A stretch of DNA of 64,000 nucleotides. Source: Coleofasciculaceae cyanobacterium. GTDB lineage: Bacteria; Cyanobacteriota; Cyanobacteriia; Cyanobacteriales; Xenococcaceae. The stretch is taken from NCBI GenBank assembly GCA_036703275.1, contig DATNPK010000028.1, positions 186,001 to 250,000 of the forward strand, given 5' to 3'. Position numbers and translations under genes: made by a program. Of this stretch, positions 4,050 through 23,614 are shown piece after piece. Each line of letters starts with the position of its first letter. Position 1 is the first letter of the stretch. The notes beneath the pieces were generated by a model. That model did no database searches. It was not told the origin of the DNA and saw only the letters and a list, made by a program, of their open reading frames with translations.

Positions 4050-4226
4050 TTAGTTTTCTTTGGTAACAATTGCTTCCACTGTAGCTGTTTGTTTTTCCTT
4101 GTCTATCTTGGTAACAGCCCAGCGCAATGGCTCTCCTTTCTGCTGTAGCTGTGATTCAATTTTTTCTTGAAGTTGGAGAGGAGTCTCCTGAAGTTCGATT
4201 TCGGCGGTAATAAAGTGCGTAGTCAT
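4050..4226 (-). CDS. Small conserved cyanobacterial protein, 58 aa
   Basis: The frame runs from ATG (complement of 4224-4226) to TAA (complement of 4050-4052) and encodes 58 residues beginning MTTHFITAEIEL. The sequence alternates charged and hydrophobic residues, with GEPLRWAVTKID in the middle and VEAIVTKE near the end. This suggests a small alpha/beta fold. I recall similar short proteins in cyanobacteria, but no function is assigned. It ends only 35 bases before the DUF3326 start on the same strand, which supports an operon 58-aa gene, DUF3326, CPBP protease. Confidence 0.68.
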   Translation of the reverse strand: MTTHFITAEIELQETPLQLQEKIESQLQQKGEPLRWAVTKIDKEKQTATVEAIVTKEN

Positions 4227-4513
4227 TAATTTTTACTTTAGTTATTAATAACTATTTTCTAATTTAAAATGTACCGATTGTAAAATAGAAAGAAATAGTT
4301 AATATTTTTTGATTATTTATTACCAGTTTTATATTTTGCTCAATATTGCGTTGATTACTACATTTAACACACATAAATACTATATAACTGAACAAACTAT
4401 ATTCAACAATACATTAAGCGTCTTAGAAAGAAACAAAAATTAACTTTTATAACTTGTTGGTGAGTCTTTAATCAGGCTGATAATTCCATCTTCTAAAATA
4501 ACCAGGTATTTTG
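4227..4513. promoter_or_regulatory. Divergent spacer between the 58-aa gene and the M48 protease
   Basis: About 285 bp of AT-rich DNA separates two divergently transcribed units, so promoters for both directions must lie here. I see no clear operator palindrome and no further open frame. Confidence 0.35.
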
Positions 4514-6274
4514 ATGAAATCTTTAAATTTAAGTTTAATCCTGTTAAATATTTTTCTTTTTCCGACCGTAACTTTAGCTAAGTCTGTGACAATTGAACCT
4601 AGTCATAATCAAGTTCATCTCAGTCAGCTTTATTCAGAGGAAAAAACAGTCACAGAACGAGCTTTTAAGGCACACGGCAAAGATGAGAAATTAGCTGAAA
4701 ATTCTGAATCAGAAACTGAAGAAGTTGAAGACGATACATCTGAGTCCGAAGAAGATGTTAAAGATAAAGCCAAAGAACCTACCCCAGAAGAAATTGCTCG
4801 GTTAGCCAAACTAGCGCAAGCCGATCGACTGTATATATCGGGAAATAAAGCTGCTGCCGTTAAACTCTATCGAGAAGCAAAAGAACCCTGGAAGATTGAG
4901 CAAGAGGCTAGTAAGCAAAACGACGAATTAATTATTATTACTTTTGACGATCCAGCAAAGCTTAGTCCCGCAGGAAAAGTATTTTGGCGTAACTATCAAC
5001 AGGGAAAAGAACGACAGTTAGAAACCCAAGTAATTAGTGCTTTAAAGTTGTTAACCACTAGAGAACCTCAGTTTATTTCTGGTCATATTCATTACGCTGA
5101 GGTACTGTTAGCGTCTGAGCGAGAGACAGAGTCCCTCGAAGTTTTAAACCGAGCCGTTAATCGCTATCCCAACGAACCCAAGTTATTACGAGCCAAAATG
5201 AATGCGGATCTTGCTGCTGAGAATTGGCTAGATGCTTCAATTATGGCGCGTCAGTTCGCCCTATTTAATCCTGATTCACCCCAAGCAGAAGAATTTAATC
5301 GCCTAGCAGAAGAATATTTGGCAGAATATCAGAGTAACCTACGAGAAAGTATTACCTGGAATGCGATTGGAAATGCGATCGCAGGAACAGTCGGGTTTGC
5401 CTTGACGGGTAATTTGTTTGGTCCTCTTTCGGCTTTAGAAACTACTTCTCTGTTGCTAAGAGGAGAATCTGCTGTTGGAGAAGCTTCTGTTGGACAAATT
5501 AAAAAACAGGTACCTCTGGTTCAAAACAAGAAAGTTACTAACTATGTTGACCAAATTGGTCGAAAGATTGCCAACGCATCAGGAAGAGAAGAGTTTGACT
5601 ATCAATTTTATATTGTGATGGATGATGCCCTTAACGCCTTTGCACTTCCAGGCGGAAAAGTATTTGTTAACGCGGGGGCGATTATGAAAACCGATTCTGA
5701 GGCGGAGTTAGCAGGATTACTGGCTCATGAAGTTTCTCATAGTGCCTTATCTCATGGTTTTCAGTTAGCTACCAAAGGAAATCTCACTGCCAATATCGTT
5801 AGCTATATTCCCTATGTCGGCAATACAGCTAGTAGCCTAATCGTACTTAACTACAGTCGAGCTATGGAGAAGCAGGCAGATATCTTTGGTACGAGGATCT
5901 TAGTTAATGCTGGATATGCGGCTGATGGAGTCCGCAATTTAATGGCTCAACTGGATAAGTCTCGGGATGAAGATAATTCCGAACCTCCTGCTTGGCTGTC
6001 TAGTCATCCTAATACCAAACAAAGAATCGATTATATGGAAAGATTGATTGTTGATCGCAATCTCAACCGCTATGCCTATGAAGGTGTTTCTCAGCACCAA
6101 GAAATTAAAAAATTAGTTACGGCAAAATGGCAAGAGTACGAAAAATGTGTTGAGGAAGTAGATAGCATCAAAGAAGCTAAAATATGCGCTGGTGAACAGG
6201 ACGAATCTCAGGAAGATCCAGAAAACCCAACGGACGAAACAATGGAAAATGAAGCTGAGGAAGCCAAAGATTAG
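4514..6274 (+). CDS. Exported M48-family zinc metalloprotease
   Basis: The 586-residue protein starts with a hydrophobic signal sequence of about 22 residues, followed by a Glu/Ser-rich acidic linker (about 40-95) and a helical TPR-like region (about 160-270). The catalytic domain follows. The zinc motif HEVSH sits at about residues 405-409 in LLAHEVSHSALSHG, and the third ligand is the Glu in MEKQAD about 45 residues later. It resembles BepA/LoiP-type peptidases that clear or assemble outer-membrane proteins in the periplasm; that role is inferred. I chose the ATG at 4514 over the TTG just before it. The tail is acidic and poorly conserved. It converges on dndE with a one-base gap. Confidence 0.87.
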   Translation: MKSLNLSLILLNIFLFPTVTLAKSVTIEPSHNQVHLSQLYSEEKTVTERAFKAHGKDEKLAENSESETEEVEDDTSESEEDVKDKAKEPTPEEIARLAKLAQADRLYISGNKAAAVKLYREAKEPWKIEQEASKQNDELIIITFDDPAKLSPAGKVFWRNYQQGKERQLETQVISALKLLTTREPQFISGHIHYAEVLLASERETESLEVLNRAVNRYPNEPKLLRAKMNADLAAENWLDASIMARQFALFNPDSPQAEEFNRLAEEYLAEYQSNLRESITWNAIGNAIAGTVGFALTGNLFGPLSALETTSLLLRGESAVGEASVGQIKKQVPLVQNKKVTNYVDQIGRKIANASGREEFDYQFYIVMDDALNAFALPGGKVFVNAGAIMKTDSEAELAGLLAHEVSHSALSHGFQLATKGNLTANIVSYIPYVGNTASSLIVLNYSRAMEKQADIFGTRILVNAGYAADGVRNLMAQLDKSRDEDNSEPPAWLSSHPNTKQRIDYMERLIVDRNLNRYAYEGVSQHQEIKKLVTAKWQEYEKCVEEVDSIKEAKICAGEQDESQEDPENPTDETMENEAEEAKD

Positions 6275-17204: not shown

Positions 17205-17355
17205 AATTTTTTACTAGCAATAATAATCTCCAAATACTTCGGCTTAAAATTTACTTATCATAGAAATAAATAAATGCTGCTTCACAAAACATTGGATTTA
17301 GTCTATATTTGTTTTGTAGCTAATTAAGCTAATTTAATGTTTATCGAACAAAATT

Positions 17356-19188
17356 ATGGAGCAGTTGTTTAGTGAAAATATCTGGCTAGTTCCTTGTTAT
17401 GCACTAGTCGGGACAAGCTTAGCCTTACTTTGGTCGCCAGGAATTATCAAAAAAACTGGTTCTAGACCAGCAGGATATATTAATTTGGTTATAACCTGTG
17501 TGGCATTTGTTCATAGTGTTTTGGCTCTGCAAGAAGTTTGGCAACAGCCAGTACAAGAAATAAGATTTCCCTGGTTGACAGCAGCAGGTTTATATATATC
17601 TTTCGATGTCAAAATTTCTGCTATTACCGTAGGCGCATTAGTTTTAATTACAGGTCTAAATATTCTGGCTCAGCTATATGCCGTTGGCTATATGGAAATG
17701 GACTGGGGCTGGGGGCGATTTTATGCTTTGATGGGCTTTTTTGAAGCAGGTCTATGTGGTCTAGCTCTGTGTAATTCGCTCTTTTTCAGCTACGTATTTT
17801 TAGAACTTCTTACCTTAGCAACCTATTTAATTGTTGGCTTTTGGTTTGCCCAGCCTCTGGTAGTTACAGGGGCGAGAGATGCCTTTTGGACAAAGCGAGT
17901 AGGAGATTTATTACTATTGATTGGAATAATTGCCCTGTGGTCTTTTACAGGGACTTGGAATTATGACGATCTAGCCGAGTGGGCAAAGGTAGCTAATTTA
18001 AGTCCAGTAACGGCTAACCTACTCTGTTTGGCTTTGATTGCGGGCCCTTTGGCTAAATGTGCCCAGTTTCCCTTACAGCTGTGGCTCGATGAAGCGATGG
18101 AAGGTCCTGTTCCCGCTTCGATGCTGCGTAATTCAATTGTAGTAGCGACGGGGGCTTATGTACTGATTCAGCTACAGCCAGTACTAGCACAATCATCTAT
18201 TTCCAATTTGGTAATGGCAGTTGTCGGTTCTTTTACGGCTATTAGCGCGTCTTTAATTGCGATCGCCCAAATCGATATTAAACGAACCCTATCCTATTCC
18301 GTCAGTGCCTATATGGGTTTTGTTTTTATCGCCGTGGCGGTAGGGGCAAATCATGCAGCCTTACTTTTGATTTTGATTCATGCGATCGCTATGACTTTGT
18401 TATATATGAGTGCTGGCACAATCATTATTAGCAATATTACTCAGGATATTACAATGTTGGGCGGGATTTTTTCTCGTCGTCCCGTTAGCGGACTAGCGTT
18501 TTTAGTCGGTGCAGCTAGCTTAATTGCTGTTCCTCCTTTGAGTGGTTTTTGGGCATTACTGGAATTAGGAGATTATTTACTCACGGTGCAGCCTATATTG
18601 CTGGGAGTTTTGGTACTGGTGGATGGGTTAACTGCTTTTAACTTAATGCGAGTATTTAGCTTGGTTTATGGCGGCAAGCCTCAGGAGATGACTAAACGTT
18701 GCCCTGAAGTTTTGTGGGCGATGATTTTGCCCATGACGGTTTTAGCTGGGTTTACGCTCCATTTTCCTTTGATCTTGCAGCAGTTTAATTTATTACCAAC
18801 CTGGGCTAATTTAGATAAAAACGTGGCTTTGCTGTTAATTGGTTCAAGTCTTACTGGTCTTAGCTTGGCTGCATTTTTATACCTTAGAGAAAGTAAGATT
18901 AAACCAGGGGAATTAGTGCCGTCATTCCTGCAAAAAACTTTAGCCAACGATCTTTATATTCAAGACATATATCGTTGGACAATTGTGAGCTTAATTGAGA
19001 TTACATCAAAAGTTGTTGCCTGGTGCGATCGCTATATTGTTGACGGTGCAGTTAACCTAGTTGGTTTTGGAACTTTATTTAGCGGACAGGCTTTGAAGTA
19101 TAGCAATTCAGGTCAATCACAATTTTATCTTCTCTCCATTGTGCTGGGAACAATCTTGCTCGGCTTAATGTTTGGATTAACACTTTAA
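17356..19188 (+). CDS. ndhF: NAD(P)H dehydrogenase-1 subunit NdhF, CO2-uptake type
   Basis: The 610-residue protein is an antiporter-like NDH-1 subunit with about 15 membrane helices. It shows the NdhF core motifs VGDLLLLIGIIALW, AKCAQFPLQLWLDEAMEGPVPASMLRNS and SLIAIAQIDIKRTLSYSVSAYMG. It is somewhat shorter than respiratory NdhF1. The neighbours ndhD and the CO2 hydration gene mark it as the NdhF3/NdhF4 type of the NDH-1MS complexes, which pump protons while hydrating CO2 at the thylakoid. The absence of a cupS-like gene downstream slightly favours the NdhF4 type. It is the first gene of a four-gene operon with spacings of 30, 39 and 47 bases. Confidence 0.9.
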   Translation: MEQLFSENIWLVPCYALVGTSLALLWSPGIIKKTGSRPAGYINLVITCVAFVHSVLALQEVWQQPVQEIRFPWLTAAGLYISFDVKISAITVGALVLITGLNILAQLYAVGYMEMDWGWGRFYALMGFFEAGLCGLALCNSLFFSYVFLELLTLATYLIVGFWFAQPLVVTGARDAFWTKRVGDLLLLIGIIALWSFTGTWNYDDLAEWAKVANLSPVTANLLCLALIAGPLAKCAQFPLQLWLDEAMEGPVPASMLRNSIVVATGAYVLIQLQPVLAQSSISNLVMAVVGSFTAISASLIAIAQIDIKRTLSYSVSAYMGFVFIAVAVGANHAALLLILIHAIAMTLLYMSAGTIIISNITQDITMLGGIFSRRPVSGLAFLVGAASLIAVPPLSGFWALLELGDYLLTVQPILLGVLVLVDGLTAFNLMRVFSLVYGGKPQEMTKRCPEVLWAMILPMTVLAGFTLHFPLILQQFNLLPTWANLDKNVALLLIGSSLTGLSLAAFLYLRESKIKPGELVPSFLQKTLANDLYIQDIYRWTIVSLIEITSKVVAWCDRYIVDGAVNLVGFGTLFSGQALKYSNSGQSQFYLLSIVLGTILLGLMFGLTL

Positions 19189-19218
19189 CACTCTAAAATT
19201 AGGAATTTTTGTTACAAA

Positions 19219-19938
19219 ATGAAACACGATTTATCGCTTAATAGAAGAAAATTATTACAATACGGAGCGATCGCTCTAGGAACAACAGTTGCCGTTAATG
19301 GTTTAACAGCTAATTTAACTCATGCCGAATCTACCGATATTAATTCTCAGACTAGCAACGAAAATATTACTCCAGATGAAGCTTTAAATTTACTAATGGA
19401 GGGTAATAAAAGATTTGTTAATAATCAAAGTCAATATCCCAATCAAGATTTTGAACACATAGCAGAAGTTGCCAAAGAACAATTTCCCTTTGCTTCGATT
19501 CTCGCCTGTGCTGATTCCCGTCTTCCTGTAGAAATCATTTTCGACCAGGGATTTGGAGATACTTTTGTGGTTCGCGATGCGGGAAATATCGCCACCCCCG
19601 AAGAAATTGGCAGCCTGGAATTTGGCAGTGCTGTGTTAGGTAGCAAGTTAATTTTAGTACTTGGTCATGAAGAATGTGGTGCTGTTAAAGCAACTATTGC
19701 AGGTAAACCAGTCCCAGGAAGTATTGGGAGTATTTTAGCAGCAATTAAACCAGCTATTAAAGAAGGAGATAAAACCTCCAAAAGCTATCTGATAGATACT
19801 GTTAAACGTAACGTTTTGCTCCAAATTGATCGATTAAACTCATCTCCAGTAATCTCTCAACTAATTAGCGAAAATCAATTAAAAATTGTCGGTGGTTATT
19901 TCGATTTAAACACAGCAGAAGTCCAGTTAATTACTTAA
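19219..19938 (+). CDS. Exported beta-carbonic anhydrase (EcaB-like)
   Basis: The 239-residue protein begins with a Tat-type signal: twin arginines in LNRRKLLQYG, a hydrophobic stretch, and a probable cleavage near THAES (about residue 35). The mature part is a beta-class carbonic anhydrase. Zinc ligands are visible as Cys and Asp in ILACADSRLP and His-x2-Cys in GHEECGAVKA, with RDAGNIATPEEIGSLE between. The enzyme interconverts CO2 and bicarbonate, here in the periplasm or thylakoid lumen. It lies inside the NDH-1 CO2-uptake operon between ndhF and ndhD with short gaps, so co-transcription is likely. This supports a direct role in CO2 uptake. It resembles Synechocystis EcaB, but orthology is not proven. 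Confidence 0.9.
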   Translation: MKHDLSLNRRKLLQYGAIALGTTVAVNGLTANLTHAESTDINSQTSNENITPDEALNLLMEGNKRFVNNQSQYPNQDFEHIAEVAKEQFPFASILACADSRLPVEIIFDQGFGDTFVVRDAGNIATPEEIGSLEFGSAVLGSKLILVLGHEECGAVKATIAGKPVPGSIGSILAAIKPAIKEGDKTSKSYLIDTVKRNVLLQIDRLNSSPVISQLISENQLKIVGGYFDLNTAEVQLIT

Positions 19939-19977
19939 ACCAGTAACTAGTTAGTTAATTTATTTCCCTACTTTCTC

Positions 19978-21495
19978 ATGCTTAGTTTTTTAGTTTGGCT
20001 ACCTATTGTAGGGGTATTAATTATTGCTTGTTTACCAAATAAAAATTCACAAATAATACGGATAACAAGTTTAGTAATTAGTACCATTAGTTTTTTGCTT
20101 TCTTTATTATTAATCTCCCGCTATGACTTTCAACTTCAAGGTTTACAATTAACTGAATTTTTACCTTGGATTGAAGTCTTAGGGCTTAATTATAATTTGG
20201 GGGTTGATGGCTTATCTTTACCTTTAATTGTCCTCAATAATTTACTTATTTGTCTGGCAATTTATAACGGTGACTCACCTCAAGAAGAAAATAGCCTTTT
20301 TGCTAGACCTAAACTTTTTTACGGTCTAATTCTAATTTTGGCAGGTTGCATCAATGGTGCATTACTCGCACAAAACCTACTTTTGTTCTTCATTTTTTAC
20401 GAAATAAAATTAATTCCCGTTTATCTGTTAATCAATATTTGGGGAGGAAAAAATCGTGGTTATGCAGCTACTAAGTATTTACTTTATACGGCATTTTCAG
20501 GTATTTTTGTCCTAGCTGCTTTCTTGGGAATTGTCTTTTTGACAAATAGTAGTTTTGATTATGAAATGGTACAGACTCAGATCTTACCTTTTGGCAAACA
20601 ACTAATTTTGTTAATCACTTTAATTATTGGCTTTGCTATCAAAACCCCTCTTGTTCCTCTACATACTTGGTTGCCCGATGCCTATACAGAATCACCGACA
20701 TCTGTATCAATGATTTTAGGCGGTATACTTTCAAAATTAGGAACTTATGGGTTAATTCGCTTTGGTTTAGGGTTATTTCCTCAATTATGGAATAATGTTG
20801 CAGTTTGGTTGGCGGCGATCGCTACAGTTAGTGCTTTGTATGCCTCGTTTGTGGCTATTTCCCAAACTGACCTCAAAAAAATGGTGGCATATAGTTCCAT
20901 TGCTCATATTGCTTTTGTCGTGTTAGCTACAGCAGCGGGGACTTCGATTGCCATTTCGGGGGCAATTTGCCAAATGTTTGCGCACGGGTTGATCGTGGCA
21001 CTATTATTTTACTTAGTCGGAATAGTAGAAACCAAAACTGGCAGTCGAGATCTTAATGTTCTTACTGGTTTGATGAATCCCCAACGGGGTTTACCCCTCA
21101 TTGGCGGTTTAACTATTCTGGCGGTAATGGCAAGTGCAGGGATACCTGGCATGGTCGGGTTTATCGGTGAATATATCTCTTTTCAGGGCAGCTTTACCGT
21201 ATTTCCAACTTTGACTATACTTTGCCTGATTGCTACAGGTCTGACTTCAGTTTACTTTGTCATTCTGCTTAATAAAACTTTCTTCGGCAAAATTGACTGT
21301 CGGCAAACCCCTAATGTTTATCCTCAAGTAAAGTTAGCTGAACGTATGCCCGCATTTGTTCTAGCTATGCTAATTGTCATCTTGGGTTTACAACCAGCAT
21401 GGTTAACTAACCTCACTGAATTTAGCGTTATTGCCAGTCATCCGACTACTGCAACTACTGTGGCTCAAAAAGAGATCTTAACAATTAACCATTAA
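19978..21495 (+). CDS. ndhD: NAD(P)H dehydrogenase-1 subunit NdhD, CO2-uptake type
   Basis: This 505-residue membrane protein has the NdhD/NuoM pattern: LGLNYNLGVDGLSLPLIVLNN, the key Glu in LFFIFYEIKLIPVYLLINIWGG, PLVPLHTWLPDAYTESPTSVSMILGG, and QTDLKKMVAYSSIAHI. These residues line the proton channel of antiporter-like subunits. Together with the adjacent CO2 hydration protein it should form the distal arm of NDH-1MS, the CO2-uptake form. It is separated by 39 bases from the carbonic anhydrase gene. The ATG at 19978 gives a first helix of normal length. NdhD3 and NdhD4 cannot be told apart by eye. Confidence 0.9.
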   Translation: MLSFLVWLPIVGVLIIACLPNKNSQIIRITSLVISTISFLLSLLLISRYDFQLQGLQLTEFLPWIEVLGLNYNLGVDGLSLPLIVLNNLLICLAIYNGDSPQEENSLFARPKLFYGLILILAGCINGALLAQNLLLFFIFYEIKLIPVYLLINIWGGKNRGYAATKYLLYTAFSGIFVLAAFLGIVFLTNSSFDYEMVQTQILPFGKQLILLITLIIGFAIKTPLVPLHTWLPDAYTESPTSVSMILGGILSKLGTYGLIRFGLGLFPQLWNNVAVWLAAIATVSALYASFVAISQTDLKKMVAYSSIAHIAFVVLATAAGTSIAISGAICQMFAHGLIVALLFYLVGIVETKTGSRDLNVLTGLMNPQRGLPLIGGLTILAVMASAGIPGMVGFIGEYISFQGSFTVFPTLTILCLIATGLTSVYFVILLNKTFFGKIDCRQTPNVYPQVKLAERMPAFVLAMLIVILGLQPAWLTNLTEFSVIASHPTTATTVAQKEILTINH

Positions 21496-21510
21496 TAACT
21501 GTAACAGTAC

Positions 21511-21530
21511 GGGTGAACGGCCGTTCGCCC
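21511..21530. repeat. Dispersed palindrome GGGTGAACGGCCGTTCGCCC
   Basis: Twenty bases form a near-perfect inverted repeat (nine of ten pairs) in the 47-bp gap between ndhD and the CO2 hydration gene. Related palindromes rich in GGGGCG/CGCCCC occur at 30793 and 58205. It may be a small mobile palindrome, and as an mRNA hairpin it could adjust the ratio of the two gene products. Confidence 0.6.
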
Positions 21531-21542
21531 CTAACAATTAAA

Positions 21543-22826
21543 ATGATCCAATCTAAAACTAAACTTTTACCTTCCAATCATCAATTTGCCGATGTAATTC
21601 ATCGCTTAGAGGCGGGAGGATCGATGCTACCTGATACCCCCGAAAACTTGATGCAGATCATTGGTATTTATAAAGCTTATGCTATCCCCATGGATTTTTA
21701 TTGGCGCGATCTACTTTATATTGCCGAACGAGTATTTCTCAATCCTTTACCCTGGTTTAAATACTTTTTGCCCCAAGAATATTTAGATTTACCCAATCAC
21801 TATGCAGGAAAAGACGCTGACCTTCAAGTGTGGCGCGGTAAAGCATCAGCCCATCCAGAACTTTTAGAGTTTATGGCTAAAGGGGAAACGGGAAAAATGC
21901 CCAAATTATTACATCACCTCAACCACGATCGCATCAATATGGAATTTGCCGAGGCTTGTATGCGGGCGATGTTTTGGCATCAGGATCTTAATCCTAAATT
22001 CAACGAATATTTAGATAGTGAGGAATATCAAGCCAATGCGGATCGGGCAATCAAAGCCTATTTTAAAAACAACCCCGCAATGTTGGGAATGTATAAATTA
22101 TTCCCCGATATGTTTTTAGAACAGGTGCGACAGCTTTCTTACTATTCTAATTTAGGACTATTTTGGGAGGTGATGTGTCCCGTATTTTTAGAAATGTCCG
22201 ATATTTATGATGAGGGTGGATTTAAAGATGTCCCCGAAGCAATGAACTTCTTGGTTAACGGAATCTTTGCGGTGGCAGGTAGACCAATTTACCATCATGT
22301 ATACATTGGTGATGAATGCTATGAAATTATCCCCAAATCCCAAGGCTTTACCTGGCTATATGAAGCTGCTTTACCCTATGTAGAGGCTGTCTTTTATCGG
22401 ACTTCTCCGTTTCGTGGCACTAAATCTTATAACGCTCAAGCCAAACAAGTACCAGATAATCAGCCAGACTTTCACTATGGGATTCTCTATGCCGATGTCT
22501 TACCTGTGGGGATGGCAGGGATTCCTCCTACGCTGCTGATGGATGACATGTGGCATTTTCTACCAGATTATCTGGTGGACTACTACAAACAACACTGTCG
22601 TGGGGAAGACGATATGCTGGTACAGTTAGGAATTACTTTTCAGCGCTCAATGTACAACGTTACTTCGGCAGTAATTCAAGCCTTGCGCCAAGCTTTACTG
22701 TATCCATTAGATGATGAGAATCCCGAACATTTGCAAAAAAATCGGGCGTTTTTTACGGCTCAAATGGATCGTTTTTTGCGTAATGAAGCTCGTTTGCAAG
22801 ATATTCAAAGTTCTGATTATCGTTGA
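21543..22826 (+). CDS. cupB: CO2 hydration protein of NDH-1MS (CupA/CupB, ChpX/Y)
   Basis: The 427-residue soluble protein matches the cyanobacterial CO2 hydration family. It contains ADVIHRLEAGGSMLPDTPENLMQI, AIPMDFYWRDLLYIAE, KMPKLLHHLNHDRINMEFAE and GMAGIPPTLLMDDMWHFLPDY. His and Asp residues in these blocks are candidates for the zinc site that converts CO2 to bicarbonate when docked on NdhF/NdhD. I favour the CupB (ChpX) form because the opening blocks look closer to it and no cupS gene follows, but CupA is possible. I start at the ATG at 21543 because the upstream in-frame GTG lies in the palindromic repeat. It is the last gene of the operon. Confidence 0.85.
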   Translation: MIQSKTKLLPSNHQFADVIHRLEAGGSMLPDTPENLMQIIGIYKAYAIPMDFYWRDLLYIAERVFLNPLPWFKYFLPQEYLDLPNHYAGKDADLQVWRGKASAHPELLEFMAKGETGKMPKLLHHLNHDRINMEFAEACMRAMFWHQDLNPKFNEYLDSEEYQANADRAIKAYFKNNPAMLGMYKLFPDMFLEQVRQLSYYSNLGLFWEVMCPVFLEMSDIYDEGGFKDVPEAMNFLVNGIFAVAGRPIYHHVYIGDECYEIIPKSQGFTWLYEAALPYVEAVFYRTSPFRGTKSYNAQAKQVPDNQPDFHYGILYADVLPVGMAGIPPTLLMDDMWHFLPDYLVDYYKQHCRGEDDMLVQLGITFQRSMYNVTSAVIQALRQALLYPLDDENPEHLQKNRAFFTAQMDRFLRNEARLQDIQSSDYR

Positions 22827-22869: not shown

Positions 22870-23190
22870 TTAGCCAATTATTGAGAGTATATTTCTAGCT
22901 ACGTTATGGTCACGTCTTAGATTGCAGCTACACTTGCATTTATGAGTTCTCGTGCTAAGTGTTTTGGTTACCTTCGTTCCACACTCAGAACAATTGACTG
23001 AGGTGTACTGAGGAGCAACCGCAATAGTTATCTTCCCAAACTTAGCAACGAAATACTCCAGCCAGACTCTAAATTGATACCATCCAGTGTCGGTTATAAA
23101 CTTGGCAAGGTTATGGTTTTTAACCATGTTAGCAATTCTTAAGTCTTCATAAGCTACTACAAAGAAGAACACGAAAGCTAGATTTGCAAG
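22870..23190 (-). pseudogene. IS200/IS605-type TnpB, C-terminal remnant
   Basis: About 100 residues of the end of a TnpB (OrfB) remain: FVVAYEDLRIANMVKNHNLAK, GWYQFRVWLEYFVAKFGK, then the zinc-ribbon cysteines in NCSECG and CKCSC. The last RuvC-like Asp is in RRDHNVARNIL. The N-terminal three quarters are missing. The open frame continues by chance into the last codons of queF, so the ATG inside queF is not a true start. TnpB is an RNA-guided nuclease in transposons; this relic lacks two of the three catalytic acids. Confidence 0.85.
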
Positions 23191-23209
23191 CCGTGTCAAC
23201 AAAACAAAT

Positions 23210-23614
23210 CTATGATTTTTGGTGATGTACTTCAATTACTGTATGAACATTACCTCTAGGGGTAAAGTCTCCTTTTACAGTAGCGAATAAGGGATCGCAA
23301 GCGGCTACAAAATCGTCGAGGATTTGATTTACTACTTCTTCGTGAGGAATATAGCGATCGCGATAGCTGTTAATATATAGCTTCAAACCTTTTAGTTCTA
23401 CTACTGTTCGATCGGGAGAATAGGTGATATAAATCGTGGCAAAGTCAGGATAGCCAGAAAAAGGACATTTACAGGTAAATTCTGGCAAAGTGATACTAAC
23501 GTCATATTTGCGTCCAATTCTGGGGTTGGGAAAAGTGATCAATTCGCCTTCAGCGATCGCTCTTTCGCCGTATTTCAGTTCATCGGTTGTGGGTGATTGG
23601 GGAGTTGTAGTCAT
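23210..23614 (-). CDS. queF: NADPH-dependent 7-cyano-7-deazaguanine reductase (preQ1 synthase)
   Basis: The 134-residue protein is a short-type (YkvM-like) QueF. It reduces the nitrile preQ0 to preQ1 with NADPH in queuosine tRNA modification in the cytoplasm. The catalytic Cys is in FTCKCPFSGYPDFATI, and the family segment LKGLKLYINSYRDRYIPHEEVVNQI is complete. The protein ends at HTVIEVHHQKS, the normal end, so the tnpB remnant that touches its 3' end has not truncated it by more than a residue or two. It is transcribed leftward with the S4-domain gene lying upstream. Confidence 0.92.
   Translation of the reverse strand: MTTTPQSPTTDELKYGERAIAEGELITFPNPRIGRKYDVSITLPEFTCKCPFSGYPDFATIYITYSPDRTVVELKGLKLYINSYRDRYIPHEEVVNQILDDFVAACDPLFATVKGDFTPRGNVHTVIEVHHQKS

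Follow-up and report, generated by a model that had tools for sequence, protein, structure and literature searches.

An EcaB-type beta-carbonic anhydrase gene with a predicted export signal lies inside the ndhF3-ndhD3-cupA operon of a cyanobacterium and keeps this place in several families

The stretch analysed here, referred to as the window, comprises 64,000 nucleotides of a Coleofasciculaceae cyanobacterium (assembly GCA_036703275.1, contig DATNPK010000028.1, positions 186,001 to 250,000 of the forward strand). It carries a gene assigned to the EcaB family of beta-carbonic anhydrases (CA), the product of which is predicted to be exported by the twin-arginine translocation (Tat) route to the p-side of the membrane, i.e., the thylakoid lumen or the periplasm. 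According to the list of open reading frames (ORFs) and to profile searches, this gene is the second of four on the + strand, in the order ndhF3, exported beta-CA, ndhD3, cupA, and the operon encodes the high-affinity CO2-uptake complex NDH-1MS (NDH-1_3). The recurrence of the arrangement in about one quarter of the surveyed genomes that carry cupA suggests that the anhydrase works with the CO2-uptake complex from the opposite side of the membrane. The features of the operon are the following:

17205-17355, + strand: likely operon promoter region, 151 bp upstream of ndhF3, with a -35/-10-like site at 17281-17309
17356-19188, + strand: ndhF3, ORF of 610 residues, antiporter-like NDH-1MS subunit, in which a CO2 tunnel has been proposed; TIGR01960, 910 bits (cut-off 589)
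19219-19938, + strand: EcaB-type beta-CA gene, ORF of 239 residues; PF00484 (Pro_CA), 124 bits
19219-19329, + strand: Tat-type signal peptide of the anhydrase, about residues 1-37, NRRKLLQYGAIALGTTVAV...THA/ES, read from the sequence with an inferred cleavage site
19978-21495, + strand: ndhD3, ORF of 505 residues, antiporter-like NDH-1MS subunit; PF00361, NDH_I_M (NdhD/NuoM-type)
21543-22826 (ATG start) or 21513-22826 (GTG start), + strand: cupA (chpY), CO2-hydration subunit; ChpXY TIGR01964, 755 bits, PF10216

The ORF coordinates bear out the gene order and the intergenic gaps of 30, 39 and 47 bases given in a preliminary description of the window; the last gap holds for the ATG start of cupA and shrinks to 17 bases with the GTG start. 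In the 151-bp leader, the count of -35/-10-like sites is not clearly above that of shuffled sequence, and inspection by eye revealed nothing convincing as a CcmR/NdhR-type site. Promoter and terminator scans likewise did not rise clearly above shuffles, and neither the presence nor the absence of internal promoters was argued from them. Within the window, to which this check was confined, cupA is not followed by a cupS-like ORF.

The anhydrase retains the beta-CA residues C97, D99, R101, H150 and C153, invariant among 15 relatives, and the zinc-ligand and dyad motifs (CxDxR ... HxxC) appear as CADSR and GHEECG. Its N-terminus, as read from the sequence, has a twin-arginine motif of the form N-RR-K-LL (NRRKLL) at residues 8-13, along with a hydrophobic segment, and cleavage at THA/ES is plausible. 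Both traits are general among the cyanobacterial anhydrases of the operon clade described below: the twin-arginine motif is present in 46 of 47, and the active site is intact in 46 of 47. The AlphaFold2 model displays a beta-CA fold (mean predicted local distance difference test, pLDDT, 77; residues 1-45 poor), and its best Foldseek match is the beta-CA Rv3588c (2a5v, E 1e-17, TM score 0.86 by target). Two further PF00484 genes lie on other contigs of the genome, one of them CcaA-like (L001, 69% identity to 5swc). The carboxysomal beta-CA CcaA (5SWC) thus has a separate counterpart here; it shares the fold and the catalytic residues with the window anhydrase and, in contrast to it, has no signal peptide.

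The identity of the complex follows from its three other subunits. The closest Protein Data Bank (PDB) match of the window NdhF3 is chain F of 6tjv, and alignment reveals that Arg37, Tyr41, Glu114 and the chlorophyll-motif His469 of the NDH-1MS structure (numbering of PMC6981117) are conserved. NdhD3 is closer to the NdhD3 of a relative (56% identity) than to the NdhD4 encoded in the same genome (50%). For the ChpXY protein, the sole PDB match is Tlr0906 (6tjv chain P, 696 bits), and identity to the CupB of the same genome is 42%; it is therefore CupA rather than CupB, which assigns the operon to NDH-1MS. His130 and Arg135 of CupA, zinc ligands and CO2-hydration residues, are likewise conserved in the alignment to 6tjv chain P (numbering of PMC13249358). 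The window thus has NdhF3, NdhD3 and CupA in common with the Thermosynechococcus structure 6TJV, with all checked catalytic and tunnel residues. It differs from the published Synechocystis core operon, ndhF3-ndhD3-cupA-sll1735 (PMC13249358), which has no anhydrase, by the CA gene between ndhF3 and ndhD3. The separate low-affinity operon of the same genome, ndhF4-ndhD4-cupB, contains no anhydrase gene.

The survey of other genomes that the preliminary description had proposed was carried out on an even draw of 386 genomes across the phylum, 131 of them with CupA. For the linkage count, an anhydrase was paired with cupA if its match reached about 1e-55; weaker and more remote beta-CAs, chiefly from picocyanobacteria, were left out. 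A match of this quality is present in 65 of the 131 cupA genomes, and in 33 (25%) it precedes cupA in the same orientation, at a distance of 1.6-4.1 kb. Chance linkage is excluded, because random placement in 5-Mb genomes would, by our estimate, yield about 0.1 genomes of 131. The linked genomes span 7 families (f1, f2, f8, f9, f18, f22 and f24) in 2 orders, f24 belonging to the other order. Eleven named genomes also display the linkage, from the genera Chlorogloea, Calothrix, Pelatocladus, Laspinema, Nostoc, Westiellopsis, Microcystis, Mastigocoleus and Anabaena; a match to the anhydrase was obtained for 25 of 40 relatives. Where 14-kb neighbourhoods were read, the order ndhF3-CA-ndhD3-cupA was seen in several families, and the survey genomes read directly have the anhydrase between ndhF3 and ndhD3, with the exception of G253, where it stands 5' of ndhF3. 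The contig of G105 stops after ndhD3, before cupA, and this genome is additional to the 33.

In 27 complete operons the four genes always share one strand, with a mean amino-acid identity of 57% for the anhydrase; the median gaps are 80, 141 and 100 bases and the maxima 286, 1012 and 860. The conserved feature is consequently gene order and strand, not tightness of spacing. With gaps of up to 1 kb in relatives, little can be concluded from close spacing by itself, and the earlier argument that short gaps imply co-expression was set aside. The argument from gene order to a functional unit fared better, the order being kept in at least 7 families; the observation itself was right and understated.

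A tree of 95 anhydrase sequences, also suggested at that stage, places the window enzyme in a clade of 51 rows (support 99/96) that contains every anhydrase encoded between ndhF3 and ndhD3. A second large clade of exported beta-CAs (31 rows, support 99/97) hardly ever occurs near NDH genes and serves as a built-in control for operon linkage. Inside the operon clade fall the anhydrases of G031, G101 and G105, three genomes of one genus, taken to be Synechocystis on account of a CcaA identity of 85-96% to the PCC 6803 protein (5swc). The window anhydrase accordingly appears to share descent with Synechocystis EcaB, as placed through genomes of that genus and not through the PCC 6803 protein. With EcaB (Slr0051) of Synechocystis sp. 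PCC 6803 it has in common the beta class, a predicted Tat signal and the clade of the EcaB-type enzymes of the genus; EcaB has a published link to NDH-1MS/MS', and the window gene differs in lying inside the ndhF3-ndhD3-cupA operon.

Genomic context varies within the genus. The gene lies between ndhF3 and ndhD3 in G105, elsewhere in G031 and G101 (in the latter, CcaA shares 96% identity with its PCC 6803 counterpart), and is missing from G118; the statement that Synechocystis EcaB is encoded away from the operon thus holds for two of these genomes. The tree forces at least 7 changes of context (starred branches), and its simplest reading is that the operon gene moved out several times. Synechocystis EcaB would then be best read as a gene that left the operon, which would explain why the enzyme studied biochemically in that organism looks unlinked. 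Over 27 operons, anhydrase and NdhF3 distances correlate with r = 0.67, a value reached in 0 of 2000 permutations; shared species history alone could account for such a correlation. As a separate observation, anhydrases of Gemmatimonadota and Planctomycetota (L098, L103, L109 and L110) nest in the cyanobacterial operon clade, the four grouping at 100/99 on long branches, which suggests transfer out of cyanobacteria.

Reviews that summarise Sun et al. 2019 (PMC9283085, PMC10096703, PMC11360081) describe Synechocystis EcaB as an active enzyme, mostly at the thylakoid, with an interaction with CupA/CupB and an influence on CO2 uptake; the link to NDH-1 CO2 uptake given in the preliminary description is therefore correct. 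Records on the location and activity of EcaB conflict (PMC9865033). In genome surveys of the CO2-concentrating mechanism, ecaB is said to be scattered (PMC9120777) or to be lacking from alkaliphiles (PMC5472144). The exported carbonic anhydrases of cyanobacteria have been described as lacking a known function, and whether CupA draws its CO2 from the cytoplasm or from the lumen is disputed. A widely conserved operon with an exported anhydrase between two antiporter-subunit genes lends independent support to the reported association of EcaB with CupA/CupB, and many operon-bearing strains (Nostoc, Microcystis, Calothrix and others) are now at hand for its direct study. The open-licence literature yielded no statement of the ndhF3-ecaB-ndhD3-cupA order; most subscription papers lay outside this scope, and the order may have been noted before.

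Taking these elements together, it is moderately probable that the exported anhydrase works with NDH-1MS on the lumen side, keeping CO2 available at the mouth of the NdhF3 tunnel. The observations made here are the place of the gene in the operon, its clade and export signal, the intactness of the active site and the repeated conservation; the association of EcaB with CupA/CupB, its mainly thylakoid location in Synechocystis and the NdhF3 tunnel come from papers and apply by analogy. We infer that the same association with NDH-1MS holds in the window organism, as well as the direction of catalysis. The illuminated thylakoid lumen is acidic. The anhydrase, exported by the Tat route, would sit on the lumen face and dehydrate bicarbonate with protons pumped by the complex, helped by this acidity, and would also equilibrate CO2 leaking into the lumen. 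CO2 would then enter the non-polar tunnel of NdhF3 from the lumen side, and CupA, on the cytoplasmic face, would hydrate it to bicarbonate. Such a path through NdhF3, from the lumen side to CupA, has been proposed from structure and simulation of NDH-1MS (PMC6981117), and the overall topology fits an enzyme that feeds or recaptures CO2 at the tunnel mouth. Provided that bicarbonate gets into the lumen, the anhydrase and CupA would together amount to a bicarbonate pump; otherwise, to recapture of leaked CO2. The stronger form, a relay of two anhydrases in which lumenal EcaB makes CO2, the tunnel carries it and CupA remakes bicarbonate, so that a redox-driven complex I would in effect be a bicarbonate pump and not only a CO2 trap, is offered tentatively, as a doubtful possibility. 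Of the interpretation in the preliminary description, the genomic part (gene order, EcaB clade, unlinked EcaB) has stood, and the mechanistic part is a reasonable proposal.

An analogy of arrangement, not of family, is found in the lumenal CAH3 of Chlamydomonas, an alpha-class CA. Together with bestrophin-like channels, CA on the thylakoid-lumen side of this alga is proposed to supply CO2 by dehydration (PMC10814762). CAH3 serves Rubisco in the pyrenoid, whereas the receiver proposed here is CupA, through NdhF3.

The catalytic direction is the point at which a second account departs from the reading above: the lumenal anhydrase would turn leaked CO2 into bicarbonate, balancing pH and redox state, and would not feed CupA. 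The acidic illuminated lumen favours CO2, which argues for the opposite direction. Furthermore, because the tunnel of NdhF3 has its mouth on the lumen side (PMC6981117), lumenal CO2 would be a substrate to keep rather than to remove. The review by the group of the EcaB authors, in summarising Sun et al., does state that at high light, high pH or low CO2 the enzyme converts CO2 to bicarbonate (PMC9283085). Recapture of this kind is considered unlikely.

That statement, being opposite in direction to the one favoured here, also counts against the proposed lumenal supply of CO2, as do several further points. The comparison with EcaB runs through proteins of the genus Synechocystis, the PCC 6803 EcaB sequence itself not being in the tree. 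In Microcystis PCC 7806 most of these genes are unresponsive to CO2 (PMC4419860), and inducible co-regulation is therefore not demonstrated there. Moreover, a close match to the window anhydrase is missing from 66 of the 131 cupA genomes, and in the sister species G012 the gene is reduced to an in-frame remnant of 102 residues without active site, next to intact ndhF3, ndhD3 and cupA:

L070, 7552-7860: G012 anhydrase remnant, with internal in-frame deletion of the active site; the signal peptide and the last ~24 residues remain

Because of these 66 genomes and the lost active site of G012, the anhydrase is an optional accessory and not an obligatory subunit, and NDH-1MS works without it. The same deletion, and the loss or relocation of the gene in several lineages, would also be expected if the anhydrase had been inserted once by accident and carried along without function. 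Non-functional genes decay, whereas here the order has been kept at 57% mean anhydrase identity over the 27 operons and with the active site intact in nearly all clade members, which makes such an accident extremely improbable.

Optional status and repeated departure from the operon are also compatible with co-regulation alone, in which a periplasmic enzyme would equilibrate CO2 and bicarbonate outside the plasma membrane and share an operon for low inorganic carbon, unconnected to NDH-1MS either physically or through the lumen. The signal peptide indicates export but does not decide between lumen and periplasm, and proteomics has found EcaB in the periplasm of Synechocystis (PMC11360081, PMC9865033). 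PMC10096703 and PMC11360081 nevertheless place most Synechocystis EcaB at the thylakoid, in interaction with CupA/B, and a shared need leaves unexplained the specific tie of the clade to the ndhF3-ndhD3-cupA cluster. Co-regulation as the whole explanation is regarded as rather unlikely.

A broader role, in which the anhydrase would serve NDH-1 complexes generally and NDH-1L among them, for instance through proton buffering on the lumenal side, is raised by a sister gene that occupies the corresponding place in an NDH-1L-type cluster of three family-f1 genomes:

L040, 4862-12269: locus with the sister anhydrase between ndhF1 and ndhD1
L042, 4571-12185: locus with the sister anhydrase between ndhF1 and ndhD1
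L053, 4754-8017: locus with the sister anhydrase between ndhF1 and ndhD1

These are three cases from a single family, the L053 copy has the catalytic-dyad Asp replaced by Gly, and linkage to NDH-1MS is far wider; a general role is therefore judged quite improbable. In two of the three loci a Bestrophin_2 gene (PF25539) lies just upstream of ndhF1, recalling the algal lumen bicarbonate channels.

Other neighbourhoods present variations on the arrangement. In genome G181 (L155, 4660-6160) two different exported anhydrase genes stand in tandem between ndhF3 and ndhD3. An anhydrase near cupA in G099 was not counted, as it belongs to the second exported clade and is divergent from ndhF3 (L170, 4439-5032); another member of that clade lies tail to tail with a cupB operon (L097, 9001-9696), a single case that may be chance. 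Such second-clade neighbours of ndhF3 or cupB possibly reflect independent association or chance. Directly upstream of ndhF3, two f1 genomes carry a SulP-family transporter with a STAS domain (L050, 3002-4723; L048, about 4068-4784), the L048 copy looking degraded (split matches). Since the match to the SulP structure 6ki1, presumably the cyanobacterial BicA, is only distant, this transporter may not be BicA.

The window operon itself has a mosaic appearance. Its CupA groups with other species of family f1 (97/93), while NdhF3 and NdhD3, together with those of G007 and G012, form a long branch outside all 28 other NdhF3/NdhD3 (identity 56-61% for NdhF3, 53-58% for NdhD3), and the anhydrase does not form a sister group with those of the f1 operons (loci L037, L070, L051 and L055 compared). 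This reflects either exchange of an ndhF3-CA-ndhD3 cassette or unusually rapid evolution of these subunits. On the 3' side of cupA, the - strand of the window (22870-23614) carries a truncated TnpB-like ORF (PF07282 end only) that overlaps the 3' end of queF and is probably a transposon remnant.

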